From positions 1-64,000 of the forward strand of contig NZ_JADKYP010000036.1 of assembly GCF_015354405.1 (NCBI RefSeq): 64,000 nucleotides of DNA, given 5' to 3'. Shown in pieces: positions 41,671-58,761 of the stretch (positions within the stretch are counted from its first letter, which is position 1; each line of letters starts with the position of its first letter). The notes beneath the pieces are model-generated. The model saw nothing but the letters and a program-made list of their open reading frames with translations. It did not search any database and was not told the origin of the DNA. The stretch comes from Nocardia sp. BSTN01. GTDB lineage: Bacteria > Actinomycetota > Actinomycetes > Mycobacteriales > Mycobacteriaceae. The translations under genes were made by a program, and so were the position numbers.

Positions 41671-42468
41671 TGCGGCTCACCCATGCTGGGCGCAGGTCCG
41701 GTTCGTATCTGCGTCGGCTAATCGGCCCTGTACCATTGTGTGTGGTGCGGCGACAGTCGCTTCAACTTCGAGCGTTCTCGAGGCAGCACATGACTGGGGC
41801 AACGCACGGCACGTCCACCTTTCCCGGTGCTTCCGTGCCGGCTGGGGAGTGAACCCAGACGGCGTCGGGCAGAAACCGGGGATCCCACACGGCCCCAGGC
41901 CCAGTCGAGTTCGATTCAGGACTAGACATGCGCAATTGATCGGAAGGGACAGTTTCCAGCTGAGACAGCTGTCTTTCGGTAGGACATGACACATCCTTCG
42001 ATTGCGATCGGTATGTGTTCGTCCCTCGCGGTTTGCCTCTATTGGAAGCCGAGTGCTCCCAGCTGTCAAGGCCCTTGACGTCTGAGGCTCCTTTTCGGCA
42101 TCGCGGCGATGACCACACAGATAGCCGCCAGCGCTGTCAGCGGCGCGTGTGTCGTGTCCCAGCGGCCATCGAGATCGGCTACCGGATTCTACTGTTGCAG
42201 TGAATGTTTGGCAGCGACCTGGGCGTACAAGAACATAATCAGCTCAGTCGGCAGCAACGGGTTCGATGGGGACTTCTTGCTCATTCGAGCGGGCTGTACA
42301 CAGACCGGCCACCTTCACGGCCATCGACTTCCCCCTTCCGGCTTGCCCAGGATAACGCCGCTCCATGGATACGCCGTACAGGGCCGCCGCAAGCTTCATG
42401 ATACTCCAGGTAACAGCCAATTATGAGAGCAGTAGCGTAAGCCAAGGTCCGATCATGGTGAACTCGCG
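41671..42468. other. About 800 bp without recognisable gene
   Basis: Short open frames on both strands have mixed codon usage and no recognisable motifs. Composition is less GC-biased than the core. It is probably decayed or junction DNA between the integrase block and the HxlR/SDR pair. Confidence 0.5.
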
Positions 42469-42927
42469 CTATTCGTCAGTGCAGGTGGTGTATTCGTAAC
42501 GAACCTCTCGCGCATGGATGTCGCGGCCGCAGCAGGTGCAGCGGATCACCTGCTCGAGCTCACCATCGTCGTCGGCGTGCAACAGCCGCAATGTGGGCCC
42601 CTCTGGACCCCACCGGTTGCCCCATTGCATGAGGGCGACCGTGATCCCGTAGAGGTCGCGGCCCTTTTCGGTGAGCCGATATTCGTCGCGGGGTGGCCGC
42701 TCGCTGTAGCGGCGGCGTTTCAGGATGCCGTTGTCCACTAGCTTCTTGAGGCGTTCGGTCAGGACGTTGCGCGCCACGCCCAGGTTGCGACGCATATCGG
42801 CGAACCTGCGGACGCCGAAGAAGATTTCTCGCAGGATCAGGAAGGTCCAGCGGTCCCCTACGTGCTCGACTGCGGCGGCAACTGGATCATGCTGGAGACG
42901 CCGGAGCTCGTCGTGGAGTTCGCTCAT
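42469..42927 (-). CDS. HxlR family winged-helix regulator
   Basis: A 152-residue regulator: DPVAAAVEHVGDRWTFLILREIFFGVRRFADMRRNLGVARNVLTERLKKL is the HxlR DNA-binding core (quoted as motif segments VGDRWTFLILREIF and ARNVLTERL). The C-terminus carries a CTCC cluster (RCTCCGRDIHAREV) that could bind zinc or sense thiol stress. It is divergent from the SDR gene with a dyad in the 85-bp gap. Confidence 0.9.
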   Translation of the reverse strand: MSELHDELRRLQHDPVAAAVEHVGDRWTFLILREIFFGVRRFADMRRNLGVARNVLTERLKKLVDNGILKRRRYSERPPRDEYRLTEKGRDLYGITVALMQWGNRWGPEGPTLRLLHADDDGELEQVIRCTCCGRDIHAREVRYEYTTCTDE

Positions 42928-42961
42928 TCGCCCAGATTACCGAGGTGGGTTGCGAAAGAAA

Positions 42962-42982
42962 ACCTACTCTGCCAGGGTAGGT
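42962..42982. promoter_or_regulatory. HxlR-type dyad between divergent genes
   Basis: ACCTAC-N9-GTAGGT, 30-50 bp upstream of the SDR start and 35-55 bp from the HxlR start. HxlR regulators typically bind such short dyads. Inference from symmetry and position. Confidence 0.6.
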
Positions 42983-43012
42983 CTCGAATCGAAACTAACT
43001 CGGGAGGCCGAC

Positions 43013-43861
43013 ATGCCCGCCAAATTCCGCGAACGGGTGCTCACCGCTGCCCTGCAACCCATCTCCTCACCCCGGAGACTCCGGCTGGGCCCGACGACAA
43101 CGCTCTCAGGAAAGCGAGTCGTGGTCACCGGAGCCTCATCCGGGATCGGACGTGCCACCGCGCTCCGGCTGGCCGACCTCGGCGCTGAGGTGGCGCTGGT
43201 CGCCCGGGGCCGAGACGCACTTGACGAGGTCCACGACGAGATCGCTCGTCACGACGGCCGCGTACGTGTTCTCCCCTGCGACCTCACCGATCGCGCGGCC
43301 GTGCAGGAACTGGCCGCCGAACTCCTCGATGAGTGGGGGCAGGTGGACATCCTGATCAACAACGCCGGTCGTTCGATCCGCCGGACCGTGCAGGAATCGT
43401 GCAAACGATTCCACGACTTCGAACGCATGATGGCCGTGAACTATTACGGGCCTGTGGCACTCACGCTGGAATTGCTGCCGAGCATGATCGAGCACGGTGC
43501 CGGCCACATAATCAATGTCGCGACCTGGGGTGTGCCGGCCGGTCGGATGCCGAAGTTCGCCGCCTACCATTCCTCCAAATCGGCGCTGACCGCCTTCGGG
43601 CACAGTCTCGGTGCCGAAGTCGCCGAGCACGGAATCCACGTGACAGCCGTACATTTTCCGCTGGTTCGCACGCCGATGATCGCGCCCACCGCCCACTATC
43701 GCGGAAAGCCCGCGCTCACCCCGGCGCAGGCGTCGGAATGGATGATCACCGCAATCGCCACCCGCGCACACCATCTACGCCCGCGCTATGTCCCGATGAT
43801 CGCAGCGGTCAGCGCCCTCTCCCCCGCCACCGCAGACTCGATCCTGCTGAGAATCAGCTGA
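43013..43861 (+). CDS. Short-chain dehydrogenase/reductase
   Basis: A 282-residue NAD(P)-dependent oxidoreductase starting at ATG 43013 behind GGGAGG. It has the cofactor motif TGASSGIGRATALRL, NNAG, and the catalytic Ser...YHSSK (YxxxK). The N-terminal 30 residues before the Rossmann fold are longer than usual. The substrate is unknown. It is divergent from, and probably controlled by, the HxlR regulator. Confidence 0.9.
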   Translation: MPAKFRERVLTAALQPISSPRRLRLGPTTTLSGKRVVVTGASSGIGRATALRLADLGAEVALVARGRDALDEVHDEIARHDGRVRVLPCDLTDRAAVQELAAELLDEWGQVDILINNAGRSIRRTVQESCKRFHDFERMMAVNYYGPVALTLELLPSMIEHGAGHIINVATWGVPAGRMPKFAAYHSSKSALTAFGHSLGAEVAEHGIHVTAVHFPLVRTPMIAPTAHYRGKPALTPAQASEWMITAIATRAHHLRPRYVPMIAAVSALSPATADSILLRIS

Positions 43862-44792
43862 AACCACACAGGAGCAGTAATAACCTCGCCGATCGACCTC
43901 ATCGCCGCCGTCCTCAAAATTACAGCTGACATCATCGCCCTCATCGGTCCCGAACAGCTCGGCGCTGCCCTGCTCTGTCCGAACTGGACCGCCCTCATCC
44001 ACGGAGCGGACCTCGCCGTCGCCCCCGTATAAGTCGATCCCCGGACCCGCGATCCCGGTGCATCGGTCCTCAATTCCGCAAGCACCGTCTCGAGTTCACC
44101 GACCGGGATGTGCAGTTCTTCACCCACGGCGGCGAGGGCGACGCAGGGGTCGACGGATCGTCCGACAAGTCAGCAGAACTCGCCGCCGTGCGGTTTGCAC
44201 TAAGCGCTGGTGAGCGGATATGCGGGCGCCGGAGGCACATCCCGCTTCGCAACCCGTCGCGCAGCCCTCAGCAGCCGCACAGCTCCTGCTGATGTCGAGA
44301 GGCGGTGGCACTACCGGACTTTCGCGCTTGATCGACATATTCGCGCCGCATTGTCGGCCCGAACCGGTCGGGAGCTCGTCGAAGACCTTCAGGCGGCCGG
44401 TCGCATTGAGCGCTCGAACATTGCAAATGGGAATTAAAACGCGCTCGCCACGTTCCGCCGGCGAACCCCGCGGTCGCCAGCACAGCTGGGCCAACTGGCG
44501 CAGGTAGTTGAAGGAGGAATCCAGCGTAGCTAGATGCCTGTGATCGCGCGGCAACCGCGTTTTGGCCTGAGATCGCGCCGCTGTGCCTTCCCATCCGATC
44601 TTGTCGCTTCGGGATCAGCGCGCCGATCTCCTCATTCGCGACCGCCGCTTGCTCACGATAGCCAGGATGTCATTTAGTAGCGCTGAGCCGACGGCACCTA
44701 TGCCGCAGTGAGATAGCGATCCGGAGTCCCTGTCGCCGATCCATTTGGCACAGATTTGACGGTGCCGGACGATGGTCGGTCAGCACAGAGAC
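43862..44792. other. About 930 bp without supported gene
   Basis: Just after the SDR stop, AGGAG is followed by a 50-codon frame (TSPIDLIAAVLKITADIIALIG..., ending AVAPV) whose first codon is ATA, so it may be a small gene that lost its start. The rest shows only short, inconsistent frames. Confidence 0.45.
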
Positions 44793-45299
44793 CTATTTGT
44801 CATAGCTGTTCCGTGGGCCAGGAGCGTGTCGCGCTGTGGCAGCCAAATCGTCGATTAGCTTCGCTTCGCACGCCTGCCATGCAGTTCGTGCGGCTTGAGC
44901 GACCGCGTTAGTTCTGTCGGACTCGTCGTGGTCCCTACCGTCTCTCGTAACGCGGCCCGGGATCGCCCTAATGGCAGCGATACCAATTTTCATCCAGGCT
45001 AACTGCGCGTGCTCGATCAGAGCCGCTCCTCGGCGAAGGTGGTCGGCCCTGGCATCACATTCTTTCGCTTCGTGGTAAATCGCATCGACATTTTGGCTTA
45101 CACGGCTTGCCGTGTCGCTGTCGGTCGAGAGGGCAGAGGGGCATGCTTCCGATTCGAGGGCTGAGGCCATCGCGCGTATCTCTTTTGCGGCGGCAGACCA
45201 GGAATTCGCGGCTCGAATCATCCCCGAGGGATTGCCGCTCGGGCGGGGTCCCAACATCGACTCGATACGTTCTTTCGGAAAGTCTTCCGACATTTTCAT
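44793..45299 (-). CDS. Hypothetical helical protein
   Basis: A 168-residue mostly helical protein with AGGAAAG before the ATG. The segment AANSWSAAAKEIRAMASALES followed by a second long helix (AKECDARADHLRRGAALIEHAQ) is reminiscent of WXG100/ESX-type helical hairpins, but no WxG motif is present. No partner genes are near. It looks genuinely coding although isolated in decayed DNA. Confidence 0.5.
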   Translation of the reverse strand: MKMSEDFPKERIESMLGPRPSGNPSGMIRAANSWSAAAKEIRAMASALESEACPSALSTDSDTASRVSQNVDAIYHEAKECDARADHLRRGAALIEHAQLAWMKIGIAAIRAIPGRVTRDGRDHDESDRTNAVAQAARTAWQACEAKLIDDLAATARHAPGPRNSYDK

Positions 45300-46302
45300 G
45301 CTTTCCTAGTGTTATGTGACGTTCCGCCTGCGATAATAAGCTGCGTGGCGCTGATTGTGTTATGCGATACACGCCTACCTATCATTGGCCAACAGTACCA
45401 ACTGAAGTAGCTTCACTAACTGTAGGAGGGACTGGGTCGGTGCGGCAGCCGTGGCGGTTTACGTTTAATTGCTTCTGACGTGGGGCATTGACGTCATGGG
45501 TCAGCGAGAAACGCTGAATGGCAGGACTGTGCGCCGATTATTAATATCTGATTGTTACGTACTATCCTGATTTCTAGTTCGCATAGAGCATTCCTTTCCG
45601 ATCGGACCCGTTGTGCACTCCGCATATTGGAACTTACACACTCCTCTATCAGTGGTCATGTCGTTGGCCCCCCGGCAATCAAAGCTCCGTACTCGATTGT
45701 TGCCCAGGCTGAGGTACAGGATTATCGTGAAGCGGACGGTGCAGCAGGTGAGCTGTTCGCCATTTTTTGGTGACCGCGAAGGTTGACGCACCTGCCGTGG
45801 TGGTGACGGCGGCGAAGGCAGAAACTGACCACGCCCAGGTCCGACCGACGCTGAGGTGTGTTCTCTTGCCCTGGAACACCGCTGCGAATGCGCTTGTTCC
45901 CAATCCGTCTTGTCCTGCACGAAGGCCTTGTAGTGACCTTACTAGAAACAGTCTGGCCCAGACTGGGCGCCGAATTTACGCTGTAGGATCGAGCCGCCGC
46001 AACGCGAGAATACCGCTGGGCCCGGGCGCTTATCTGTCCTTCACCACACCCCGCGCGCCCTCATCGACTACCAGCGCCGACGAACCCGAGAACGGCAGCC
46101 ACGGCAACATTCGCATCACACACCAGGCCACCACGCTATCGGCCGAAAGTGAGCCAGAGCCGTTGAATTGACATTCCCCGGAAATTGAAGTGGGCAGGGC
46201 TTTCAGTGTGGTGGACGGAGCCCGGTGTCAGACGCTGTCAGCGGACGGTCGATGTCGCCGGCGTTTCGGAGTAGGTTGCCGTGGTACCGCGCCCGATCGT
46301 CC
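45300..46302. other. About 1 kb without recognisable gene, AT-richer
   Basis: The stretch around 45350-45620 is noticeably AT-richer than the core (runs such as TTATTAATATCTGATTG). Only short frames without family features are found. It is probably non-coding, decayed island DNA. Confidence 0.5.
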
Positions 46303-46625
46303 TTAGCTGGCTATGTTGTATGCCTCGCCGATGTCGGCTTGGATTCGGCCACGCTGGAAATGTTGTAGCCATTGTTCTTTGCCCATTCGCGAATTGCGTC
46401 GGTCTGCTGCCTGTCGGCCATCGTGCGTGCAGCCGTCTCGCCCTTGCTCGCGGGGCGCGCACCTTGCGAGCAGGTTTTGGGCACTGCGCGAAGGTGCCCG
46501 GAGCTGTGGCCGCATTCTTGTTCGACAAGTTGAACTGGTCTTCGACGCCGTCGATACCGAACGACACCGTCTCCTTGGTTTTGGATTTGTTGTATAAGTC
46601 GTACCTTGAGCTGCGCAGTGTTCAT
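46303..46625 (-). pseudogene. lsr2: Frameshifted lsr2-like nucleoid protein gene
   Basis: Pieces of Lsr2 appear in order on the minus strand but in different frames: QLKVRLIQQIQ (start), then ETVSFGIDGVEDQFNLSNKNA (the dimerisation-domain strand), then DRQQTDAIREWAKNNGYNIS and finally RGRIQADIGEAYNIAS before a TAA (the AT-hook-like DNA-binding domain). At least three frameshifts separate them, so the gene is dead unless the sequence is in error. Lsr2 is the xenogeneic silencer of actinobacteria; extra copies travel on mobile DNA. Confidence 0.75.
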
Positions 46626-46898
46626 CGCTGGACCGCGAGTGGAGACGCTGCTCGGCGCATCTCACACGCAAAAGGTCGCTGGTTCGAAACCGGCTGGGAC
46701 CACGTTGTTTATGTCGATCATCGTGGGCTTCCCTCGGCACCATCGGTTTTCGCGCGATAGTCGTGCAATAGCTTTACGGTCTCGTCGCGTTGTCACTCGT
46801 GTGGCGATCCGAGCCGGCGCCCCGATGGCGTGGGCTGATCGATTCGGTCCGTCATGCTTGTCCGAGATCGACCACGCGAGCAGTGCTTTGATCGCTAG

Positions 46899-47921
46899 TC
46901 AGTCTGATAGTTGGGTGGGTAGGTCGAATTTCGGGAAGAGAGCCGGGTCGAGGTAGATGTCGATTGCGGCGATTTGGGTGTCGCGGAAGGTGAGCAGCTG
47001 GATCCCGAACGCCTTATAGGGCTGGCCCGGTGCTGTGGCGTGATATACGGCGAGTGCAGGACTTCCGTTGGCGTTGACGAGGGCTGTGCGGGCGCGCACG
47101 CACGGGTTGGGTGTTCGGCGGAACCACTGGTCGATCTGAGCGCGACCGGAAAGCCACAGCGGGTACGGCGGCATGGACAAGGTCGCATCTTCGGTGAGCA
47201 GGCTAGTCAGGGTGTCGAGGTCGGTGCGTTCGAATGCGTCGACGTAACGAGCGAGCAAACGCCGTTGTTCGTCTGTCAGCAGGTACGGGTCGCCGTCGGC
47301 ATAGGTGAGTCCAGCGAGGCGTTGGCGGGCGCGGCGGAGCATTCCGTTGGTCGAGGCGACGGTGAGCCCCAACAATGCGGCGGCCTCGTCGGCGGGCCAG
47401 CGCAGCACATCGCACAGGATCAATGCGGCGCGTTGGCGGGGAAGCAGATGTTGCAGAGCGACGACGAACGCGAGGCGTACCGAGTCTCGGAGCACGACGG
47501 TTTCGGCAGGATCGCCTTTGGTAGGAAACAACCATGTATCTGGTGCGGGTTGGACCCACGTGTCGTCGGATAAACGATCGCCTAGCGCCGAACTAGCAGT
47601 GCCGGACTCAACGCTATCGAGGGGATGTTCTCGTGCGCGCCCACGTCTGCGAAGCATGTCCAGGCACACGTTGGTGGCGATGCGGTACATCCAGGCGCGG
47701 CGGGAGGACCGACCCGCGAACTGGTCGAGTCCACGCCAGGCGCGCAACATCGTCTCTTGGACGGCGTCGTCGGCATCGAATGGCGAGCCCAGCATCCGAT
47801 AGCAGTAGCCCAGCAGCTCCTGCCTGTACCGGGCGTGAAGTTCCTCCCAGTGCGCAGGCTCCGTAGGCTCCGTCGAAACAGGTTCGACTGGTATGTCGGC
47901 CGTCTCTGTCTGTGTCTGCAT
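46899..47921 (-). CDS. ECF sigma factor with SnoaL-like C-terminal domain (1)
   Basis: A 340-residue sigma factor. Region 2 is RYRQELLGYCYRMLGSPFDADDAVQETMLRAWRG, region 4 RQRAALILCDVLRWPADEAAALLGLTVASTNGMLRRARQRL (core pieces), then a C-terminal NTF2/SnoaL-like domain (ERTDLDTLTSLLTEDATLSMPPYPLWLSGR). This is the SigG/SigJ-like ECF layout, in which the fused domain regulates activity instead of a separate anti-sigma factor. No anti-sigma gene is adjacent. It is divergent from an NmrA-type reductase, 120 bp away, its likely target. Confidence 0.9.
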   Translation of the reverse strand: MQTQTETADIPVEPVSTEPTEPAHWEELHARYRQELLGYCYRMLGSPFDADDAVQETMLRAWRGLDQFAGRSSRRAWMYRIATNVCLDMLRRRGRAREHPLDSVESGTASSALGDRLSDDTWVQPAPDTWLFPTKGDPAETVVLRDSVRLAFVVALQHLLPRQRAALILCDVLRWPADEAAALLGLTVASTNGMLRRARQRLAGLTYADGDPYLLTDEQRRLLARYVDAFERTDLDTLTSLLTEDATLSMPPYPLWLSGRAQIDQWFRRTPNPCVRARTALVNANGSPALAVYHATAPGQPYKAFGIQLLTFRDTQIAAIDIYLDPALFPKFDLPTQLSD

Positions 47922-48041
47922 GCCGCAGCCAACATGGCAGCTTCAGTTCGCATTCCCGGCGCGGTTAATCGTATGAGTCACGGTCGTCTTCATTGCGAGT
48001 GCCTTGAAACAGGCACTCCAAACCACGACAAGGAGAAATTC

Positions 48042-48947
48042 ATGTTCTTGATCACGGGTGCTACCGGGTTGACCGGCTCGGCAGTAGTCCGACGGTTTGC
48101 GCAGCAGGGCGAACCGGTGCGGGCTCTGGTACGCGAACCCAAGAAGCAGCAGTTCGCCGGTGTGGCCGGCGTCGACACCGTGGTCGGTGATCTGCTCGAG
48201 CCGGCAACCTTGGAACCCGCGCTGGCCGGAATCGACACCGTTGTACTGATATCCGGCGCCGACGACACGCTGATCGAGGCTCAGTGCAACCTGATCGATG
48301 CGGCTGAGGAGGCAGGGGTCGGCCACATTGTGAAGGTGTCGGGTCTCGGTTGCGACCACGACTCCCCGTTCCGGTTCGGCCGTTACCATGCCCAGATCGA
48401 AGACTACTTGCGGGCTAGTAGTGTGGCATGGACCATCTTGCGGCCTAGCCAGTTCATGCAGGTCTATTACCGCGAGGTGCCGACTTTGCTGGAGGATGGC
48501 AGCTTCGCCGTTGCCATGGGTGATGCCCGTCTTGCCCCGATCGATGTCGAGGACATCGCTGCGGTCGCCTACGCCGTAGCGCAAAGCGAAGAGCACCACG
48601 GCAAAAGTTTTGCGATGACCGGACCCGATGCGCTCAGGATGAGCGAGGTTTGCGATATCTTGTCGCCGGCCGTCGGCAAGCCGCTTCACTATCTTGACAT
48701 AGATCCGCGAATCAAACGGCAGCAGTTGATCGACAATGGAATTCCGCCGCGGCTCGCTGATGACATGGACGACTTGTTCCGGTTGCGTCGCGAGGGCGGG
48801 CCAGAATCAGAGGTTCATCTGGAGGTATTTGACCTCCTCCAGATCCGGCCCACGTCGTTCGCCGAATTCGTCCAGCGAAGCGTCGACATCTTCCGCGGCA
48901 CGACCACACCTGCCCAGTTGTGGGCTTCGGGCTGGCAACGGGTTTGA
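48042..48947 (+). CDS. NmrA-like NAD(P)-binding protein (1)
   Basis: A 301-residue Rossmann-fold protein starting at ATG 48042 behind AAGGAG. It has the cofactor motif LITGATGLTGSAVVRRF, VRALVREPKK, and the family segment AWTILRPSQFMQVY. Such proteins act as reductases, epimerases or redox sensors. Divergent from ECF sigma (1); SnoaL-type ECF factors are known to be linked with NAD-dependent epimerase/oxidoreductase genes. Confidence 0.9.
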   Translation: MFLITGATGLTGSAVVRRFAQQGEPVRALVREPKKQQFAGVAGVDTVVGDLLEPATLEPALAGIDTVVLISGADDTLIEAQCNLIDAAEEAGVGHIVKVSGLGCDHDSPFRFGRYHAQIEDYLRASSVAWTILRPSQFMQVYYREVPTLLEDGSFAVAMGDARLAPIDVEDIAAVAYAVAQSEEHHGKSFAMTGPDALRMSEVCDILSPAVGKPLHYLDIDPRIKRQQLIDNGIPPRLADDMDDLFRLRREGGPESEVHLEVFDLLQIRPTSFAEFVQRSVDIFRGTTTPAQLWASGWQRV

Positions 48948-49238
48948 GCCCGACGGTGTCAGCTCCGGCAACTCATGCTGTCGGCTGAGCGCGATGCGCT
49001 GCTCAGTCTGGATTCGACATCTTGTTGGTCGGCGGGATCATCGTTTCACATAATCGGCTCAGAGAAACTGAACACCTCTGCGGAACGCCGCCGAGTAGGG
49101 GCCGATGGGCGCGAAAGCGGGTATGCGTCAAGGGATCCCAGCCGCACGGCCTCCACGATCCTGCGCGACAGCGGCCTCGGCCACAAGTTCTGTTGCGGTC
49201 TGCGTGACATAAGGGCTGGACTCGCACGGGGCAACAGG

Positions 49239-49269
49239 GGGTGGGATGGACCTCAAATCCATCCCACCC
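49239..49269. terminator. Hairpin terminator at the end of the IPT-IDI-LOG operon
   Basis: GGGTGGGATGGA-N7-TCCATCCCACCC, perfect 12-base arms. It lies 45 bp after the LOG stop (minus strand) and 292 bp after the NmrA gene on the plus strand. The rest of the 48948-49313 gap has no recognisable gene. Confidence 0.8.
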
Positions 49270-49313
49270 TCGCCGGGGAATCGGGGACAGCCCGGAATGC
49301 AGGCTTGGCCTGG

Positions 49314-49961
49314 TCAGCGTTCGGAGGCTCGACCTGGGCTTCTAGTTGCTGTCACACGCTCGCCGGACGGCGTCGGCGATCCTGCCGGTAGCTGATTGGG
49401 ACCGTTCGACACCGTCGGCGGGCGCCAGGTATGCATCCGTATCAGGAGCGTTGCCGGGTCAGTGTCGGTGAGCAATAAGTCCCGGTGTGCGCGGTGCAGA
49501 AACTGTTCTTCGACGGCTCGGTCGAGGAAAGCGAGCAGGTGGTCGTAGAAGCCATGGATATTGAGCAAACCGACCGGCTTGTGCTGAAGCCCGAGCTGTG
49601 TCCAGGTTGCGATCTCCGCAGTCTCCTCGAGGGTGCCCAGGCCGCCGGGGAGCGCGACGAATCCATCTGCAAGCTCAGCCATGAGCGCTTTACGCTCGTG
49701 CATACTCTCGACCCGGTGAAGCGCACTGAGGTCTTCGGCAGCGATTTCGACTTCTGCGAGGTGCTTCGGGATGACGCCGACCACCTTCCCACCCGCGGCG
49801 CGAGCGGCGCGGGCCAATGCGCCCATGATGCCGACTTTCGCCCCGCCATACACGAGGGTGATATCCTCCGCGGCCAAGTGGCGGCCGAGGGCTTCGGCCT
49901 GGTCGATGTAAGCAGGATTCGCCCCCCGACTCGAACCGCAGAACACACATATCGCCTTCAC
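49314..49961 (-). CDS. LOG family cytokinin riboside 5'-monophosphate phosphoribohydrolase
   Basis: A 215-residue protein starting at GTG 49961. It has the LOG family nucleotide motif VYGGAKVGIMGALA (about 38-51), ESMHERKALM (85-94) and the hallmark PGGLGTLEE (105-113). LOG enzymes cleave ribose 5-phosphate from isopentenyl-AMP to release the active free base. The GTG overlaps the stop of the isomerase gene (GTGA), the third gene of the operon. LOG-fold proteins are also called lysine decarboxylase-like by error. A role in general AMP turnover is possible, but the context points to cytokinin. Confidence 0.92.
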   Translation of the reverse strand: MKAICVFCGSSRGANPAYIDQAEALGRHLAAEDITLVYGGAKVGIMGALARAARAAGGKVVGVIPKHLAEVEIAAEDLSALHRVESMHERKALMAELADGFVALPGGLGTLEETAEIATWTQLGLQHKPVGLLNIHGFYDHLLAFLDRAVEEQFLHRAHRDLLLTDTDPATLLIRMHTWRPPTVSNGPNQLPAGSPTPSGERVTATRSPGRASER

Positions 49962-50596
49962 CGACCTACGCCCTTTCCGCCGCGCCCGCGTCGTCTCCAA
50001 TGGACCGCAGCTGCGGGTAGCCGGTTCGGGTCGCCAGTGGGCCATTCCGCCGGGTCTGGCCCAAGGAGTGTTAGCTGTTCCACCTGGCTTTTGCACCACG
50101 GGGAAACGAGGAGGCTGCTGTCCAGTACCTGAGTTGCGAAGGCGGTCCAGGGCATCCATGTCGCCTCGGCGACCTCAGCCGGATCCGGATGCATGTCGAT
50201 GGAGGCGGCGCGAGCAACGTAGACCGGACAGAGCTCGTTTTCGACAATCCCATTGGCCATTTCGGCGCGGTATGAGAACGAGGGGAGCACAAGGGTTGTG
50301 TGGTGAACCGCGATACCGAGCTCTTCCATTATGCGGCGTTCGACTGCCTCGACCAGGGGCTCTGCAGGTTCGGGATGACCGCAACAAGTATTTGTCAAAA
50401 CTCCCGGCCAGGTCGGTTTGCTATGCGCGCGCCGTGTAACCAGCAGTTGCGCCCGATCGTCGAAGACATACGAGGAAAAGGCGAGGTGAAGGGGGGTAGA
50501 TCGATGATGGACCCGGTTCTTCGGTCGATAGCCGATCGCCTCCCCATTCGGTCCGCACAGCACAACCAGCTGTGACCTCACGGATTGAACTGTCAT
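49958..50596 (-). CDS. idi: Isopentenyl-diphosphate delta-isomerase, type I (Nudix)
   Basis: A 212-residue isomerase converting IPP to DMAPP. It has HLAFSSYVFDDRAQLLVTRRA, the catalytic cysteine in NTCCGHP (C72), Nudix-like helix AVERRIMEELGI, and the catalytic glutamate segment VENELCPVYV (E119/E121). Start at ATG 50596, overlapping the IPT stop as ATGA. In this operon it would supply DMAPP for the isopentenyltransferase. It is a second gene beyond general isoprenoid needs, or the genome's only idi; this cannot be decided here. Confidence 0.93.
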   Translation of the reverse strand: MTVQSVRSQLVVLCGPNGEAIGYRPKNRVHHRSTPLHLAFSSYVFDDRAQLLVTRRAHSKPTWPGVLTNTCCGHPEPAEPLVEAVERRIMEELGIAVHHTTLVLPSFSYRAEMANGIVENELCPVYVARAASIDMHPDPAEVAEATWMPWTAFATQVLDSSLLVSPWCKSQVEQLTLLGPDPAEWPTGDPNRLPAAAVHWRRRGRGGKGVGR

Positions 50597-51339
50597 GACC
50601 ACCCCGTTGTTTCGCATTGGTGGCCGACCGTCTGAGGCCGGCGAAGCTGTCGCCGCGGCATGGCGAGGAATGCCTGATGTTGAAGCTCGCCGTAGGCGGC
50701 GTGCTCATAGGCGATGACGGCCGCGAGTTCATCTGTTTGAGACGGGCTTGGAGAGAATTCGGATAGCGATTCGATGGGGATTTCGTGGCGGCCGCACCAT
50801 CGGATCACAGTGCCGAGTCCGACGATAGATGCGACGAATTCCTGCCGGGCCTTGTATCGCCACGCGGCGGCGAGTTCTTGCAGCAGTCCTGGCTGCCCCT
50901 CCGGGGGAGCGAGCATCCGACGTGCCCTCAGCCGTAATCGGTGCATATGGTCGTACGGGTCTGTGACCCGCATGAGTTCGGTGCTGACCTCGAACGGCAG
51001 GTCGTCGCTCGCACCTAAGAAGGCACTGAGCAGCGAAATTGAGCCTCCTTCCACCACAACACATCGGTGCTCTCGCGACAACTCATGCAGTGTGCGGCGC
51101 AGGGCAACGTGGGCGGCATCGGGAGAGTAGTCGCCGTCGTCGACGGTTCGCGTATCTAAGAAGTGCCGTCGTAGGTCGTCGTCCTCTTGTCCCGTGTGTC
51201 GGGCGCTCGTCGTAGTTAGATCGACGTAGCACTGAATCCGGTCTGCGACGACGATCGGCGCGTCTAGCCGCCGTGCCTCGGTGACCGCGCGAGCACTTTT
51301 GCCGATGCCGGTAGGTCCGATGATTGTGTGGACATGCAT
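50593..51339 (-). CDS. ipt: Adenylate isopentenyltransferase (cytokinin synthase, Tzs/FasD type)
   Basis: A 248-residue enzyme transferring dimethylallyl from DMAPP to AMP. It has the P-loop IIGPTGIGKSARAV (8-15 core), DRIQCYVDLTTTSAR (33-47), and VVVEGGSISLLSAF (about 93-106), the pattern of bacterial IPT/Tzs/FasD. The tRNA enzyme MiaA differs: it has a DSMQVYRG-type segment and a longer body with a zinc finger in some cases, both absent here. ATG 51339 gives the family N-terminus; 20 further upstream residues are possible. First gene of a coupled operon with idi and LOG. Confidence 0.92.
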   Translation of the reverse strand: MHVHTIIGPTGIGKSARAVTEARRLDAPIVVADRIQCYVDLTTTSARHTGQEDDDLRRHFLDTRTVDDGDYSPDAAHVALRRTLHELSREHRCVVVEGGSISLLSAFLGASDDLPFEVSTELMRVTDPYDHMHRLRLRARRMLAPPEGQPGLLQELAAAWRYKARQEFVASIVGLGTVIRWCGRHEIPIESLSEFSPSPSQTDELAAVIAYEHAAYGELQHQAFLAMPRRQLRRPQTVGHQCETTGWS

Positions 51340-51800
51340 AGGAGCCCTTGGATGTTCGTACGACTGCACACCCTGCTGTGGTGCCGCAGATGACACCAAG
51401 TCGATGCTGGTCAGGATGAGCTCTGAAATATGAGATAGCGATAGTACGAGACACGCATCAACCCCTCGCGTCGATCACTCCCCACTGGTGGTGGCAAGCT
51501 TCCTTGGTCGAGGCCCGAGGTGTTGGACGAGGTTGCAGCAGGCTGGTCGCCGGTCCGACCTGTTGGGCATCGTCGCGCGAAATTTATGTACCTCCGGTCC
51601 GGCAGCGCGAACCCGCTAGGCCGTCCGCGCGGGGAGAGCATGACCGTGATGCCTGCTCCGGTGTGGAGCGCACGAGGGACTACGCTAGGGGAGGAGTCAC
51701 CCGAATGACGCGCCGAGTGGCTCGTCGCCGCCGGAAAAATGACAAATCACATTGAATCGATCCGTGCCACCTTCGGGTCCCTTCCGATGGTGGCACCCGA
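51340..51800. other. Leader/promoter region upstream of the IPT operon
   Basis: 460 bp without a supported gene between the small protein gene (51801-52037) and ipt, all on the minus strand. It must hold the operon's promoter unless transcription starts upstream of the small gene. I see no clear -10/-35 pair or dyad. Confidence 0.4.
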
Positions 51801-52037
51801 TCAGGTGGTGAAGCGACAGCACAGGAAAACGTCGTCCGAATACAGACTACCGCCAGGGTAAATCGACTCGGACCGTCCACTACTACCAGGTTCGGTATAG
51901 AGAGTTGCGGTTGCGTCGGTTGCGTTATCGACGTCGCCGATACCGATGACGATGTTGTAATCGTCGTAGTCGGAAGGGTTGACAAGTTTTTGACGGTTGC
52001 CATCCCTATCGGGATAGGTAAATGTTCCATTTGCCAT
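51801..52037 (-). CDS. Small beta-rich hypothetical protein
   Basis: A 78-residue protein (MANGTFTYPDRDGNRQK..., ending DDVFLCCRFTT). It is acidic and rich in Asp, Tyr, Thr and Gly, suggesting a compact beta fold; two adjacent cysteines lie near the C-terminus. No signal peptide. A purine-rich GAAGAGACGA precedes the ATG. It lies upstream of the cytokinin operon in the same direction. Family unknown. Confidence 0.55.
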   Translation of the reverse strand: MANGTFTYPDRDGNRQKLVNPSDYDDYNIVIGIGDVDNATDATATLYTEPGSSGRSESIYPGGSLYSDDVFLCCRFTT

Positions 52038-52764
52038 TTTGAGTCGTCTCTTCGCTAAAACATCCGCCCCGGGGCTGCTCGGAGGCTAACACAAACCTTC
52101 TGTCCGGTATTTGTTACGCAGCTTCCCATGCGCGGGAAGATTTTGGTGGTTGGCCGCGTCGGTGGCGATGCGGGTAGGAGGTGGGGCCCCGGTCATGGAG
52201 TTCCCTGTTTAGAGGCGCTGCCCAGTCTGTGTGCATCGTCGACGGTCGAAAAACCCAGCGTCGTTTCGGGGGAGCCCGTTATGAACCGTAGGTCCGGCGA
52301 CGCCTTGCGGTGCTTCGTCAGGCCGACGAGGAATCGTTATCCATAGGAGTCGGCTGCCCATGCGACCAGCAGCTGGGCGGCGTAGGCGTGCGGCAACTCT
52401 GCGCCGTTGCGGGCGGTGATTGCGCCGACGGTGTTGCAGCACGAGCAGCTCCCGACTGACAGTAGACACTCTCGGCCGAGGCGCCGGCCAATCTCACGCA
52501 AAGAAGAGGGCGTGTTCGCCGAGCGCCGATAGCAAGTCGCTCGGGCAGACTAGTATACAACACCACTCTGCTCGGACCCCTTCGGAGATTCGAATATGGG
52601 AGGCGGTCGATTTCGCGGCGTCGACGGTATTTATTTGTTGTGGCCGGTTTTGAATCGAACGTCAGGCTGACCTGCCCGACCAGCCGGGGCAGGTCAGTTT
52701 GCGCGGCATCCAACGCCACGACTCCCGCAGGGGTCTTGGCGCCGGGGTTATGCTCAATTTGCCG
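52038..52764. other. About 730 bp without recognisable gene
   Basis: Short frames on both strands, none with family features or consistent third-position GC. It separates the small protein gene and ECF sigma (2). Confidence 0.45.
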
Positions 52765-53754
52765 TCACTCCGTCAATGTGGCCGGGAGTTCGAATAGTTC
52801 GAACAATTCGGGAGCGAGGAATTGCTCGATCGCGCTGATGCGGCCGTCTGTGATGTCGAGGACTTGAATCGCGAAAGCGGTGAACGCGCCGTTGTTGTTT
52901 CGGTGGTAGTGCGCGTATGCGGGAGAACCGTTGGCGCGTAGGGGGACCAATCGTGAGTTCGCGCACGTGCTGCTGTGTCGATCGAACCAGCTCAGTACGT
53001 GGTGAACTCCCTGGATCCACAGAGTGTATGGAGGCATCGAGAGCCGTGCTTCCTCGTGCAGAATTGTCATGAGGCTCGCGAGGTCTTGCAGCTGGAACGC
53101 TTTCACATAGCGCTCCAGCAGCTCCTGGGTTTGCCTGTCTGATTCCCCTACGTTGGGGAAAGTGCCGCCATCAGGCTGCTTTGCAGCAATCAGAGCTGCG
53201 CGGGCACGGCGCAGGTAGCCGTTGACGGAGGGGACGGTCGTGTCGAGCAGATCTGCTACCTCGGTTGCTCGGAAGGCGAGTACATCCCGGAGAATCAGGA
53301 CCGATCGCTCACGGGGAGACAGGTGCTGAAGCGCGGACACAAAAGCCAGGCGGACCGTTTCCGCGCGTGCAACATGGTCGGCGGGGTCATTCGTCTCCGC
53401 CGTGAGCCACGCATCGGGGACCGGCTGGAGCCATGCACTTTCCGACAGTGGCTCGCCGAGCCGGCCGTCGCTGTTCGTCGGCCCTCCGATGCCCATCGGC
53501 AATGCTCGACGTCCGCGTCCGCGCAGCTGGTCGAAACAGATATTCGTCGCTATCCGGTAGAGCCAGCCTCGCGCTGAGGACTCTCCGCGGAACTGTCCAC
53601 GCGATCGCCATGCGCGCTCGAGCGTCTCCTGGACTGCATCCTCAGCGTCGAACGGCGAGCCCAGCATCCGGTAGCAGTATCCGATCAACTCGCCTCGGTA
53701 CTCGAACAATGAATCAGGGTCAAGCTTGGCAGCGGACGAGTCGAGCGCGGTCAC
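52765..53754 (-). CDS. ECF sigma factor with SnoaL-like C-terminal domain (2)
   Basis: A 329-residue sigma factor starting at GTG 53754 behind GAAGGA. Region 2 is FEYRGELIGYCYRMLGSPFDAEDAVQETLERAW, region 4 SPRERSVLILRDVLAFRATEVADLLDTTVPSVNGYLRRAR (core pieces), followed by a SnoaL-like domain (QLQDLASLMTILHEEARLSMPPYTLWIQG). It closely resembles ECF sigma (1) in the linker and C-terminus, so the two are paralogues. No anti-sigma factor is adjacent. Its nearest downstream neighbours are the small protein and the cytokinin operon. Confidence 0.9.
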   Translation of the reverse strand: MTALDSSAAKLDPDSLFEYRGELIGYCYRMLGSPFDAEDAVQETLERAWRSRGQFRGESSARGWLYRIATNICFDQLRGRGRRALPMGIGGPTNSDGRLGEPLSESAWLQPVPDAWLTAETNDPADHVARAETVRLAFVSALQHLSPRERSVLILRDVLAFRATEVADLLDTTVPSVNGYLRRARAALIAAKQPDGGTFPNVGESDRQTQELLERYVKAFQLQDLASLMTILHEEARLSMPPYTLWIQGVHHVLSWFDRHSSTCANSRLVPLRANGSPAYAHYHRNNNGAFTAFAIQVLDITDGRISAIEQFLAPELFELFELPATLTE

Positions 53755-54434
53755 AATGGATCCTTCCTGCACAACCAGACCTAATGGGAAGCTGGCACAC
53801 TGCGGATCTGGTCCGGTTTCAGCCCAAGCAGCACCGATGGCCGACCGGTAGTTGAGGACTGGTCAGTTTCCGCCCTCGCAACCGTCACCCTATCGGGTAG
53901 ATTCTACCTTCGCTCACGCCGAAGATTCGAACTGCTCCCTATCGCGCCGTGGTTCACGATAATCCCGCACCCTTGGTTCTACAACCGTTGACTGAGGTCT
54001 GGTCTGTGGCCGCAGTGCACACCGGTGGGCCACCGATCGAGGAGGTAGATGCACAGTACTGTTGCCGATTGCCACGTTGTCGATCCGTGAAAGGGAACGA
54101 TACAGACCGACCGTTGACCGCAGCGGCATCGTGCCCGAGTGCACCCCGAGCAGCGGTGCAGCATTATTTGCCCGCGCTGGGCGAGTTGCTGGACCGGAGT
54201 TTCCGCGCTGTGACGACTGTTCGCAGAGTCCTGCTCGTTTGGTCCAGTTCCAATGAGATTCTGGGCGAAATGTCCTTCGCGGCTCGTCGGCCCGGTGGTC
54301 ACCGCCGCCGGTTCATGGCCGGTGCACCGAAAGCGATGGGAGAGCGACGAGATGAAAGCCCGCAGCGAACCGAGGCGAAGTCTCCGGTTCGAGCAAGGTG
54401 ATGCCATGACGATCCCGCTACTCGAAAGTGACTC
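53755..54434. other. About 680 bp without recognisable gene
   Basis: Between divergently oriented ECF sigma (2) and the HAD gene. Several overlapping short frames occur on both strands, none recognisable. It presumably holds promoters for both flanking genes. Confidence 0.45.
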
Positions 54435-55352
54435 ATGCAAGTCGATGCCGCATTCTGTCGAATTGCTGATCTTCTCGGTGAAGATATCCAGGAAGTCGTT
54501 ACTGGCCTGTCATCCTCCTACTTACGGGCCGGAGGTGAGGTCTCCGGAGCAACGGGACGGTTCGGACAGGCTGACCTTCGTGGAGGGCGGGAAATCGAAC
54601 AAGGTATCCAGAGTTCGAGCAGGGATTCGAGCTTCGGAAGTCCGTCGCTCGTAGCCCCTACACGCCTGGCTTCTCCTGCCGATATTGCTGCACTTATTGG
54701 GGATAGAACTTTGATTTTCGATTTCGACGGGCCAGTTTGTTCCCTGTTCAGCGAGTTCACCAACGTCCAAGTTTCCGATATTATGCGGCGTAGTATCCGT
54801 TGGCGGTTTCGGTTTCAGCGTGTCTCTTTCCCTCCCAAGATTAACCGAGAAAAGGATCCGTTCGAGGTACTTCGTTACGTCGCTAAGTTGGGAGAGGATT
54901 TCGGCATTGCTGGAGAAAAGAAGTTGAGTGCTCTGGAAGTCGTCGCGGCTCGCACGGCGAAGCCGACGCCCTATGCGCACGAGTTGATTCGTACGGCGTC
55001 GAAGTCGAGGGATGTGGTATTCGCCAGTAACAACGCGACAGCTGCCGTGAAGACGTACCTGGCTACTCACGACCTTGACCGCTACGCTAGTGGCGTATTC
55101 GGCCGGTCTTCGCACATCCTCAGCCGATTGAAACCGGACAGGTTCCTACTCGAACACACCCTGTCCGAACTCGGTCTGTCGCCGGACCAAGTCGTCTACA
55201 TTGGCGACTCCACGACTGACGTGATGGCCGCCCACGCCTCAGGGATACGAGCTATCGCCTATGCGAACAAACCCGGTAAACTTGCGAGCTTCATGCCATA
55301 CGAGCCCGAAGCGGTCGTCGATTCGATGAGCGTGCTGTTGCGAGCGCTGTGA
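54435..55352 (+). CDS. HAD superfamily hydrolase
   Basis: A 305-residue frame whose C-terminal 225 residues are a HAD phosphatase. Motif I is LIFDFDGPVCSLF (the nucleophile and acid-base aspartates), motif II FASNNAT, the lysine in RLKPDRFLLEH, and motif IV YIGDSTTDVMAAHASG. The first about 80 residues are Ser/Gly-rich and unlike the family, so the real start may be internal. Phosphatase on a small metabolite is likely. It is followed by a GlxA-type regulator. Confidence 0.8.
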   Translation: MQVDAAFCRIADLLGEDIQEVVTGLSSSYLRAGGEVSGATGRFGQADLRGGREIEQGIQSSSRDSSFGSPSLVAPTRLASPADIAALIGDRTLIFDFDGPVCSLFSEFTNVQVSDIMRRSIRWRFRFQRVSFPPKINREKDPFEVLRYVAKLGEDFGIAGEKKLSALEVVAARTAKPTPYAHELIRTASKSRDVVFASNNATAAVKTYLATHDLDRYASGVFGRSSHILSRLKPDRFLLEHTLSELGLSPDQVVYIGDSTTDVMAAHASGIRAIAYANKPGKLASFMPYEPEAVVDSMSVLLRAL

Positions 55353-55666
55353 CGTCCCAAGCGTCCGAGACGGCGGCGACCGCAGCAATCGCTGGTTCGA
55401 CGAGCAGGTTGGCGAACGGTGCTCACCGTCACCTGTCCGGGTGTTTCAGAGTCTGGATCATCTCGCAAAGCGCAATCCGTTGTCCCCCAAGCAGAATTGG
55501 GTATGGCTGGCAGGCCGAACACGGTCGCCGGCAACATTCCCGACTGAACCGCCGATCGAGTTCGGCATGTCACTCAGATGCCTACCTCACCGAACGGAAC
55601 ACCGAGGAATCGCGACGGGCTTGGTGGCAGAATGTCGCGATCGGTTCTCATGATACTGTTGACGAC
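55353..55666. other. Gap between HAD gene and GlxA-type regulator
   Basis: 314 bp, no recognisable gene; one frame is open into the regulator but lacks family sequence, so I treat it as leader. Confidence 0.4.
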
Positions 55667-56665
55667 ATGGACGTGGCAGTTTTCGTCATGGATCGGACAG
55701 CGGATTTCGGGCTTGCAGCGGTGCTGGAAGTATTTGATATGGCGAATGCGCTGCGGGGTGAGCTCGAACCCGCGCCGGAGCCGTGGACGGTGCATGTAGT
55801 TTCTGTATCCGACACGGCCCGAACCGGACGCGGTCATCTCGTTCCGGCACTCCCGCTATCTAGGTTGACTGTGGACTTAGACCTGATGATTGTGCCCGCT
55901 GTGAATGCCATCGATGCCAGCGAGCTGATTGATCTGGTATCGGACCCGGCTAATCAGCTTGTGTTACAACGCATTTCGGAGGCGGCAGAGCGTGGCGTCC
56001 ATCTGGCTGCTGCCTGCACGGGCACCTTCTTCCTCGCGGAGTCCGGTGCATTGGATGGTAGTCGTGCGACCACGAGTTGGTGGCTTGGACCAGCCTTCCG
56101 TCGCCGCTATCCGAATGTCGATGTTCAGGAGGGCCACATCTTATGCCGAGACAAGCTGGTCACCACAGCGGGCGCCGTGCTTTCTCACCTCGATCTCGCC
56201 CTTTCGTTGGTCGCGGCACAGAGTCCGGCCTTGGCCGAGATTACGTCCCGATTTCTTCTGATCGGTCATCGCCACAGCCAGATCGAGTTCGCGGTACCCG
56301 AGGTAATTGCTCGCGGCGATTCCCTCGTCGCCGCGTTCGAACGCTGGGTTCGTGACCACATCTCGAAGCAGTTCCGGCTCGCAGATGCAGCCCGTTCACT
56401 CGGAGTTACTGTTCGTAGCCTTCAACGTGCAACCCAAGGTGAGATAGGAATGGCGCCCAGAGACTTCGTCGACGAGATCCGGCTGGAGCGGGCTACCCAG
56501 CTCCTCAGGACGACTTCATTGACCGTCGATGCCGTGGCCGCCAAAGTCGGCTATCAGAACGCGAGCACGCTACGGACTCTCTTCCGCCGGCGCAGAAATC
56601 GCACGATTGCCGAGATCCGGTCTTCCCCCCTCTCCTGGGAAGCAGCTCCAGCCTCTCTGCAGTAG
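55667..56665 (+). CDS. GlxA family (DJ-1/PfpI + AraC-HTH) transcriptional regulator
   Basis: A 332-residue regulator starting at ATG 55667. The N-terminal DJ-1/PfpI domain has AVFVMDRTADFGLAAVLEVFDMAN and the nucleophile-elbow-like AACTGTFFLAESGALDG. The C-terminal AraC domain has two HTHs (FRLADAARSLGVTVRSLQRATQ and LTVDAVAAKVGYQNASTLRTLFRR). Such regulators control catabolic or stress genes; targets are unknown. Confidence 0.9.
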   Translation: MDVAVFVMDRTADFGLAAVLEVFDMANALRGELEPAPEPWTVHVVSVSDTARTGRGHLVPALPLSRLTVDLDLMIVPAVNAIDASELIDLVSDPANQLVLQRISEAAERGVHLAAACTGTFFLAESGALDGSRATTSWWLGPAFRRRYPNVDVQEGHILCRDKLVTTAGAVLSHLDLALSLVAAQSPALAEITSRFLLIGHRHSQIEFAVPEVIARGDSLVAAFERWVRDHISKQFRLADAARSLGVTVRSLQRATQGEIGMAPRDFVDEIRLERATQLLRTTSLTVDAVAAKVGYQNASTLRTLFRRRRNRTIAEIRSSPLSWEAAPASLQ

Positions 56666-57865
56666 CCAAACGACGAGCTTCGCCTCAGATCGCTACTGCT
56701 GGAACCATTGTGGGAGTGGTGGCGGCTCATGCGCACCGGGACTCAGTTCAGGTTTGGTTGCCGCTTCCTCCGGGGGCTGGGTCGGATCCGACGCTGGTGA
56801 TGCCATTCTGTGTCGGTGTTCTTCGACGAGGCATGGTCTCCGCGCAAGCTGATGGTGCCAGGTGGGGAGGTCCCTCATAACCCCTCGTGCAGAACGGCCG
56901 CCGATTCTCTCCGATCGGGCTCGCCATGTGTAGGCTCGGGCCGCAGAGAGGTCGTCGAAAGGGAGTGCCCGGCGTGCCTGCCTGAGATAAGAGAACAGAC
57001 TCGGCTGCCAGCCGAGTCTTCTGGGATGTGGCGATTACATGCTGTTCCAGTGGTGGTTGTAGGTGCCGCTGTGGATGGCCGCGACGGTGCCTCATCCATC
57101 GGGCCTGTTCGGCGGGATCCGTGGCCCTACTAATCGGTCGCTTCAATTCCCTTCTCCCGGAAACTTGGTCAGCTACGCCTGCCCATCCACTGTGTGCTCG
57201 TGCTCTCCACCATATATATAGGTGAGGGTTTGGGAACCGCGAGGTCCTTACGTAATAGACTGCGGGGCAGCGGTAGTAAGATCTGCCCGCCGGTTTCAGA
57301 TGCGAAGCATCTACTCGAATACATGAGCAGATCGGCTCGGCACTGTGTGGCAGTGGCGACGGAGCCTGAGTCCAATCCACAAATCCCCGCCGGAGTTTTC
57401 GGGAAACCCAATCTGGGTGTCTTGCTCCGTCGGCGGCCCGATTTACAATCTTGACGGGACCGGATCGTCCCTCCGGAACGAGGGAGTGATCCACGGAAGG
57501 CTCGCCGGTCCAACGGGCATTCAAACAGCTCGCGGAGAGATCGGCAGATATCACCACGCGCACCGTTGAGAACGTATCTCACCGGTTCAGGGAGGTCGGC
57601 GGCGCGGCTAAAGAGGCGGCCGAGTCTGCGCGCATCGGCCTCCGGGCCGAAGCCCGACAGCACGGAACCGAATCCGGGCCAGGGCCCTGGTTACAGCGTT
57701 ACTCAATCGGGTCTCACCACTGGGACAGCTGCGTGCTCGGGAAAACGACGCCTGGCAGGCCTGTCATGAGTCCGGTGTCTGAACCAAATGGGCTACCGGC
57801 GCCGTCTCGTTCCCTGACCGTGGCTCGGTCCAACTCCTCGGGCGAACTACCGAAGTCTCCACGGT
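56666..57865. other. 1.2 kb of decayed or non-coding sequence before the IS relic
   Basis: No intact gene. A minus-strand frame of 271 codons (56748-57563) lacks family features, and a short plus-strand piece (VQRAFKQLAERSADITTRT... around 57500-57640) reads like a helical protein fragment without a start. Confidence 0.45.
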
Positions 57866-58761
57866 CTAGGTCGTGTCTTCCAATGATTTGAGCCATTCGA
57901 CGATGAGAGCCAGTGTGAATCCGGGCGCGGTAGGTCAGGGGCGAGTTTGTCGTAGCGAGTCGCGACTGCGCGCCAGTGTTCGGCCTTGTAGAACGCGCGC
58001 TCGACCAGGTTGCGTCGTTGTATTCGACCTTGTCGAAGCCTGGCGGCCGGCCACCGCGGCGTCCGCGCTTTTTCCGGTTGGCGACCTGGCCGGATCGTTG
58101 GGGTATGACGCTGCGGATCCGTTTGCGCCGCAGCAGGTCCCGGTTCGAAACTGCCGAGTACGCCTTGTCCGCGATGACCGTGTCGGGAATACGCCGAGGT
58201 GGGCCGCCGACGAGCCGGGGCACCGCCACCTGCCGAGCACTGCGGGCAACATCGCCCGAGTCCGCGGCCTGGCCAGGCGTGATCAGCACGGCCAGGCCGC
58301 GGGACGTTACCGTCGGTGGCCGCGTGGGCCTTGGTGGTCAGCCCGCCCCGCGAACGGCCCAGCCCGTGGTCGGCCGGTTCATACATCGCCCTCCGGACCG
58401 GCGGTGTGGGCCCCGGCGGCGTGCTGATGCGCGCGCACGATCGTCGAGTCGATCGCCACCACCCAGTCCAGATCACCGGTGGTGTCGGCCAGGGGAGCAG
58501 CGCGGTCAGCACCCGGTCCCAGGTGCCGACGGTGGCATAGCGGCCGTGCCGTTTCCACACTGTCTGCCACGGCCCGAAAATTTCCGGCAGATCTCGCCAT
58601 GGCACACCGGTGCGCAGCCGATACAGCATCCCCTCCACGATCCTGCGATTCTCGGAGAAGTTACGGCCAACGCGCACTTCGGATTTCGGCAACAGCAGCT
58701 CCATCAGCTCCCATTGTCTGTCCGTCAGCACACGATACCGATCACCCACCACCGTCACCAC
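57866..58761 (-). pseudogene. Frameshifted IS5-family transposase
   Basis: The N-terminus is intact (LTDRQWELMELLLPKSE..., LYRLRTGVPWRDLPE, FGPWQTVWKRHGRYATVGTWDRVL). The catalytic core is split among frames: LDWVVAIDSTIVRAHQHAAG carries the first Asp, GLGRSRGGLTTKAHA follows, VIADKAYSAVSNRDLLR carries the second Asp, and RNLVERAFYKAEHWRAVATRYDK the Glu. The gene ends at a TAG in the IS terminus (VEWLKSLEDTT). At least three frameshifts make it non-functional. Confidence 0.88.

Follow-up and report, generated by a model that had tools for sequence, protein, structure and literature searches.

Two published systems that resemble the locus reported here combine an adenylate isopentenyltransferase (IPT) with either a LOG-type cytokinin riboside 5'-monophosphate phosphoribohydrolase (LOG) or an isopentenyl-diphosphate isomerase (IDI). 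IPT and LOG have been proposed as the cytokinin functions that Rhodococcus virulence requires (PMC4092121, PMC7261884). Rhodococcus isolate A21d2 carries a minimal actinobacterial version with overlapping frames, in which IPT and LOG form a fusion protein that is overlapped by a radical S-adenosylmethionine (SAM) frame and also has a hydrolase neighbor, and the available text describes no IDI beside it (PMC4092121). In Pseudomonas savastanoi, the IPT gene ptz is used together with idi. Each of the two is required for full tumours; a former linkage between them is inferred, and in strain NCPPB 3335 they lie on two separate plasmids (PMC7472798). The word LOG does not occur in the available text of that paper, and our comparison with this system is by description, not by sequence. 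Here we describe an ipt-idi-LOG operon in Nocardia sp. BSTN01 (assembly GCF_015354405.1; 7.79 Mb in 206 contigs), located in the first 64,000 nucleotides of contig NZ_JADKYP010000036.1, hereafter the window. We consider it probable that the three genes act as one translationally coupled unit for free isopentenyl-adenine (iP), carried as cargo by an integrative, probably conjugative, element in a tRNA-Val gene.

Three Overlapping Genes for IPT, IDI and LOG

The three genes lie on the minus strand (Table 1) with 4-bp overlaps at both junctions, ATGA between ipt and idi and GTGA between idi and LOG, just as a preliminary description of this DNA, made from its letters, had stated. All three frames are intact, with zero internal stops. 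The start codons are predicted, and longer in-frame starts also exist for each open reading frame; the chosen starts agree with alignment ends, and purine-rich stretches that may be ribosome sites were seen by eye ahead of them.

The enzyme assignments of the preliminary description were upheld by family scores far above the cut-offs, and every motif that it named was found. In a profile search the IPT matched PF01745 with 187.6 bits (cut-off 20; residues 1-233), and it contains the motifs GPTGIGKS, DRIQCY and EGGSISLL. The P-loop of Tzs is kept together with D33, R34 and S45; we take D33 and S45 to be residues with functional roles. By its sequence the protein belongs with the true adenylate IPTs of the Tzs fold, apart from the tRNA-modifying enzyme MiaA. 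The IDI matched NF002995 (232.8 bits, cut-off 127, 2.3e-69), TIGR02150 (154.3 bits, above the cut-off, 2.3e-45) and the structure PDB 3hyq (7.4e-38), with the active-site motifs NTCCGHP and ENELCPV present. The LOG protein matched TIGR00730 (184.9 bits, cut-off 96.35, 1.1e-54) and PDB 5zbj (4.4e-62) and has a PGGxGTxxE-type motif, PGGLGTLEE.

From these families, IDI would convert isopentenyl diphosphate (IPP) to dimethylallyl diphosphate (DMAPP), IPT would join DMAPP to AMP to give iP-riboside 5'-monophosphate, and LOG would cleave off ribose 5-phosphate and free iP. This chemistry, from IPP and AMP to iP, is likely, and the homology and the pocket residues discussed below support it as first proposed; we infer it from sequence, and the same holds for the preference for DMAPP, for coupling of the genes in vivo and for any effect on plants. 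The genome also encodes a second IDI (on contig C167, 181.8 bits) and two other LOG-family genes, side by side on contig C138, so the idi and LOG copies of the operon are extras, and to call the operon self-contained was an overstatement.

The hairpin after LOG fared less evenly. Its 12-bp stem is perfect, as described, and the region around it (49215-49300) folds with -40 kcal/mol (z -2.83), equalled by 1 of 200 shuffles. The terminator role given to it did not hold in the same way, as a T tract is absent and the terminator scan did not report the hairpin; a terminator is a possible reading of this structure and not a result.

An Integrated Element in a tRNA-Val Gene

That the operon sits on accessory DNA was borne out. 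The element that holds it spans at least 75.8 kb and is made up of C137:35665-72515, which includes part of the window, and C121:1-38924, where we infer the join between the two contigs. The left attachment site (attL) is the 3' end of the tRNA-Val gene (Table 1). ARAGORN found no tRNA gene at its exact copy on C121, and a direct-repeat scan within the window and L112 gave nothing convincing for an attachment site, the copy being found on another contig. A relative, G040, carries the empty integration site: its DNA is 98.6% identical to window positions 32851-35663, and beyond the tRNA it aligns with the C121 side in blocks (92-95% identity) that are partly separated by additional G040 DNA. 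No IPT match was present in G040 in the PF01745 search of the genus. GC content is 0.616 in 35665-64000 vs 0.680 in 5001-35664.

The C121 part of the element encodes a TrwC relaxase (1857 aa, PF08751, 286.4 bits) as well as SSB and DprA-like proteins; among the element's frames that were scanned, a part of the whole, no transfer channel or coupling protein was matched. We read the element as integrative and probably conjugative, with the operon as its cargo. The C121 part also carries cytochrome P450 and methyltransferase genes, away from the operon.

The neighbors of the operon are extracytoplasmic function (ECF) sigma, NmrA-type and HAD genes. Three ECF sigma factors on the element have SnoaL-type C-terminal domains (one just below the Pfam cut-off), and there are four NmrA/NAD(P)-binding proteins; we take this set to resemble ECF41-type sigma factor and target pairs. 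Near the integrase end, a minus-strand frame at 38385-39809 has a C-terminal domain of the Cas3-like/helicase type, and its matches included no Cas3 nuclease domain. Four other genomes of the genus (G045, G117, G037 and G036) contain stretches that match part of the tRNA-Val 3' end at 91-100%; some of these may belong to other tRNA genes, and tRNA-Val may be an integration hotspot.

Table 1. Features of the operon and of the element that carries it, in window coordinates unless another contig or locus is named
Feature	Position	Strand	Remarks
ipt, adenylate isopentenyltransferase	50593..51339	-	ATG 51339 to TGA 50593, 248 aa
idi, type 1 isopentenyl-diphosphate isomerase (NUDIX)	49958..50596	-	ATG 50596 to TGA 49958, 212 aa
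LOG-type cytokinin riboside 5'-monophosphate phosphoribohydrolase	49314..49961	-	GTG 49961 to TGA 49314, 215 aa
Inverted repeat, perfect 12-bp stem, 7-nt loop	49239..49269	-	44 bp past LOG stop; possible terminator without T tract
tRNA-Val (tac)	35592-35664		followed by integrase gene
attL, 3' 44 bp of tRNA-Val (tac), left end of element	35621..35664	+	exact copy at C121:38925-38968
Phage-type integrase adjoining tRNA-Val	35766..37286	-	PF00589, 1.2e-15
Integrated element with operon	35665..64000		continues to contig end C137:72515 and on C121:1-38924
ECF sigma / NmrA set	46899-47921, 52765-53772, 62894-63946	-	
ECF sigma / NmrA set	47625-48947	+	
ECF sigma / NmrA set	58886-59920	-	
ECF sigma / NmrA set	L112:4629-5573, L112:9792-10805		

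Comparison With Known Cytokinin Gene Clusters

The gene set itself is already known: the same trio is present on some root-inducing/tumour-inducing (Ri/Ti)-type plasmids. The view that IPT-IDI-LOG coupling is unprecedented has therefore to be given up, given also the published ptz/idi pair of P. savastanoi (PMC7472798). We examined 11 records of Ri/Ti-type plasmids or companion plasmids. Eight of them carry the trio on a single strand, arranged ipt-idi-LOG (pRi1724 twice, pRi2659, pRiO132, pTi6.2, pTi932, the pTi of R. rhizogenes C16/80 and a plasmid of Rhizobium sp. B230/85), and seven of these eight had been chosen for their IDI match. The 13 best plasmid records for IDI were H79-H91, which were examined except for H80, H84, H88 and H91. 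On pAtAB2-73d, pTiCFBP5473 and pTiAg57 an IPT is present, with IDI and LOG absent within 5 kb. The B230/85 trio probably sits on a plasmid other than pTiB230/85, because the latter is given as lacking tzs (PMC10410297). The open-access literature available to us yielded no description of the trio as such; the accessible text of PMC10410297 and PMC8554961 mentions tzs, and 'idi' does not occur in it.

The Ri/Ti clusters share with the window the three enzymes, their order and strand, a location on mobile DNA and a sister IDI; the closest plasmid IDIs are those of rhizobial Ri/Ti-type plasmids (54-56% identity). In contrast to the overlapping genes of the window, theirs are spaced by gaps in all eight records, and their IPT belongs to another clade and keeps the D173/H214 pair of Tzs. 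A TetR gene follows LOG in six of the eight, and a radical SAM gene stands between ipt and idi in four. Of these four (L145-L148), L145 was read, and its radical SAM protein is nearest to B12-type methyltransferases, below all cut-offs; a methylated cytokinin from such trios is conceivable. What is new in Nocardia sp. BSTN01 is an actinobacterial, overlapping and element-borne form of the trio, in which the IPT pairs with an IPT of the same genus and the IDI is sister to those of Ri/Ti plasmids.

The fas operon of Rhodococcus fascians plasmid pFiD188 likewise has an actinobacterial IPT (40% identity) and LOG (48%). It also contains P450, ferredoxin, transketolase-like, FAD-binding (CKX) and methyltransferase genes, none of which lies beside the window operon, and no idi match was found in the 16.7 kb examined, in agreement with the earlier statement that it has no coupled isomerase. 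Adenylate IPTs near a LOG gene were also found in Streptomyces, Lentzea, Nocardia vaccinii, N. vinacea and N. gamkensis; unlike the window, loci with the N/H/H pocket defined below have no IDI match (0/47), and 43 of the 47 have LOG.

Substrate Pocket and Predicted Product

In Tzs, D173 and H214 form a hydrophilic pocket for 4-hydroxy-3-methylbut-2-enyl diphosphate (HMBDP) (PMC8234997). The window IPT has V and Y at these positions. FasD has Ala at one key pocket position and shows a 10-fold higher kcat/Km with DMADP, the same compound as DMAPP (PMC4092121). The V/Y pocket is consistent with a DMAPP-using IPT supplied by IDI, and the predicted product is iP.

Across 69 IPTs, compared at Tzs positions 173/211/214 with duplicate loci removed (as in all trees and tables), the pockets were N/H/H in 47, D/Y/H in 10, A/Y/H (the FasD type) in 5, V/H/Y in 3, C/H/Y in 2, and D/Y/Y and I/H/Y in one each. 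An IDI match in the locus accompanied 8/10 of the D/Y/H type, 1/3 V/H/Y, 1/2 C/H/Y and the single I/H/Y, and none of the N/H/H (0/47), A/Y/H (0/5) or D/Y/Y (0/1) types. Grouped differently, idi stands beside 3 of 6 hydrophobic/Y-type IPTs and 8 of 11 Tzs-like D-type IPTs, seven of the latter from a single plasmid family. Because the rows are related to one another, and because the plasmid rows were partly fetched for their IDI, these counts are a hint and not a test. The stand-alone adenylate IPTs L032 (G115) and L031 (G121) have likewise lost the HMBDP pocket (V/Y and C/Y), and the surrounding 7-8 kb or so of each gave no match to IDI or to LOG.

Ancestry of the Three Genes

The IPT tree was built from 33 chosen loci, the window and eight MiaA proteins. 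In it the window IPT pairs as sister with that of G115, of the same genus (100/98), and deeper in the tree it has no firm position relative to the Streptomyces, FasD and rhizobial IPTs. Approximately unbiased (AU) tests rejected its grouping with the Ri/Ti clade including L049, which nests among the Ri/Ti IPT rows and was counted with them (p 1.3e-48), and with the wider rhizobial plasmid clade (p 3e-8).

The IDI gave a different picture. In a tree of 75 rows the window IDI is sister to seven Ri/Ti rows (97/93). A denser tree, which added 40 actinobacterial rows and retained five of the seven from Ri/Ti plasmids, placed the window with Ri/Ti (100/93) among actinobacterial IDIs; near-duplicates and the native Nocardia, Ensifer, Mesorhizobium and Litchfieldella IDIs were left out of it. 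Both trees lack proteobacterial chromosomal IDIs, which limits what they can say of ancestry. Two results run counter to the sister grouping: the actinobacterial IDI L158 is closer by plain identity (59% vs 54-56%), and placing the window with the f19 clade is not quite rejected (AU p 0.055). The native-type IDIs of the genus, including the second copy of this genome, are far from the window IDI. For LOG, analyzed without the short pieces L072, L075 and L099 and the cut L186, the AU test allows a grouping with Ri/Ti (p 0.31) as well as one with the Lentzea group (p 0.32).

Because the IDI trees group the window with the Ri/Ti clusters and the IPT tests reject that grouping, idi appears to share ancestry with these clusters and ipt does not. 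Either a single operon crossed phyla with a swap of ipt, or related idi genes were recruited twice. We tentatively suggest, at somewhat less than even odds, that a single cytokinin operon of actinobacterial origin crossed phyla and was the source of idi, and perhaps of LOG, in both the Ri/Ti plasmids and the element, that ipt was replaced on one side, and that the element is a surviving actinobacterial relative of the donor.

Distribution of Adenylate IPTs and Their Neighbors

Among 151 genomes of the genus, PF01745 matched in 132 and a full-length adenylate IPT was present in 6. The remaining matches are partial, and all eight that were read are of the MiaA type. No IDI match was found within about 7-8 kb of the six IPT loci in the five other IPT-bearing genomes, and a LOG search of the genus at 1e-55 recovered the window's own alone (1/151). 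By blastn, the IPT gene is all that the G115 IPT locus and the window part of the element have in common. Full-genome IPT surveys gave 6/401 in the family, 2/394 in the class, 2/278 in the order and 0/35 in one other family (centered on G683); the first three include the window's genome, and as their first look scored 7 to 10 candidates per genome, misses are possible in them; the samples overlap.

An alignment scan of genome contigs recovered 50 IPT loci, 31 in Streptomyces and 7 in Lentzea; it rests on two peptide patterns, is not exhaustive and should miss Ri/Ti-type IPTs. Their flanks of up to 6 kb contain LOG in 45 of 50 and IDI in one (Litchfieldella L104). A single-sequence IPT scan of genome contigs gave no match, viral contigs had neither IDI nor IPT, and phages gave two weak, partial matches. 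Searching plasmids by nucleotide with the whole operon returned partial matches only. By protein, IPT matched 168 plasmid records (126 from Agrobacterium) and IDI only 70, so the trio belongs to a subset of the IPT plasmids.

Gene arrangement varied among these loci. In three of the four Nocardia IPT-LOG loci L033-L036 a small protein is encoded between the two genes; that of L035, the one scanned, has no family. In N. vaccinii (L034:6368-10904) genes for a HisC-like aminotransferase and a thiamine-pyrophosphate enzyme lie upstream of IPT-LOG. In seven Lentzea loci (L067, L069, L071, L076, L083, L084 and L093) and in L250 (G1034), LOG and IPT are divergent and not one operon. A second arrangement of the pair occurs in Pseudomonadota: in L104 (Litchfieldella), L048 (an Ensifer plasmid) and L054 (a Mesorhizobium plasmid), idi is the gene immediately upstream of ipt, and LOG gave no match.

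Alternative Roles of the Operon

Several observations weigh against a coupled unit for free iP. Against NF058542, the narrow NCBIfam equivalog for cytokinin LOG, the LOG protein scores 133.4 bits where the cut-off is 300, and the promoter scan found no sigma-70-type promoter on the operon strand. For three of the six hydrophobic/Y-pocket IPTs (those of G115, G121 and a Streptomyces plasmid), the flanks examined contain no IDI, so pocket type and IDI do not always go together. In P. savastanoi, a mutant lacking idi made more trans-zeatin and still produced cytokinins (PMC7472798), so an idi gene need not raise cytokinin output. Finally, the C121 part carries a P450 gene, and iP may later be hydroxylated to a zeatin.

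A prenyl-adenine made for the bacterium's own use, in signaling, nucleotide salvage or as a secondary metabolite, and not for plants, would differ from our interpretation in role while keeping the same chemistry. Streptomyces and Lentzea are genera with many soil species, and most of the IPT loci recovered in the 50-locus scan (31/50 and 7/50) are theirs. Non-virulence roles of microbial cytokinins have also been noted (PMC7261884). Since trios are found on rhizobial plasmids, several of them from tumours or hairy roots according to their records, we regard own use as a possibility worth keeping in mind, on the doubtful side.

It is unlikely that the operon is silent, or is decaying as the passenger of an element that is itself degenerating. 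Many nearby open frames look non-coding, and third-position GC is 0.65-0.71 in the three genes vs mostly 0.75-0.9 in frames left of attL, but the three frames are intact, their active-site motifs are retained and the overlaps are tight.

Slightly less likely still is a trans-zeatin operon, in which the IPT would take HMBDP from the methylerythritol phosphate pathway like Tzs and IDI would merely balance IPP and DMAPP, or in which the P450 of the element would hydroxylate iP. The V and Y at the pocket positions argue against it, as does the lack of a P450 among the proteins scanned at 46.9-62.8 kb of the window; the P450 gene on C121 argues for it. The Ri/Ti trios keep the D/H pocket yet carry idi (seven Ri/Ti rows; 8/10 D/Y/H IPTs with Mesorhizobium), so idi alone is no proof of DMAPP use.

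That the IPT is a tRNA-modifying MiaA with its neighbors there by chance can be practically dismissed and was rejected: the MiaA score is weak (40.5 bits vs an NCBIfam cut-off of 148.65), the partial matches of the genus reach 21-28 bits on PF01745 vs 187 in the window, and in the IPT tree, where clustering with MiaA had been named beforehand as the outcome that would refute the cytokinin reading, the eight MiaA sequences taken from the genus group together (100/100), apart from 34 adenylate IPTs.

Implications

Read as a coupled unit for free iP, the operon gives an actinobacterial genus a compact pathway, open to testing, in which three enzymes lead from IPP and AMP to a plant hormone, and it does so on an element that seems able to move. 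The isomerase tree ties actinobacterial cytokinin genes to those of some Ri/Ti-type plasmids. Furthermore, the role of idi in cytokinin clusters can be tested here, in an operon whose IPT has lost the HMBDP pocket and in which the supply of DMAPP should matter most.

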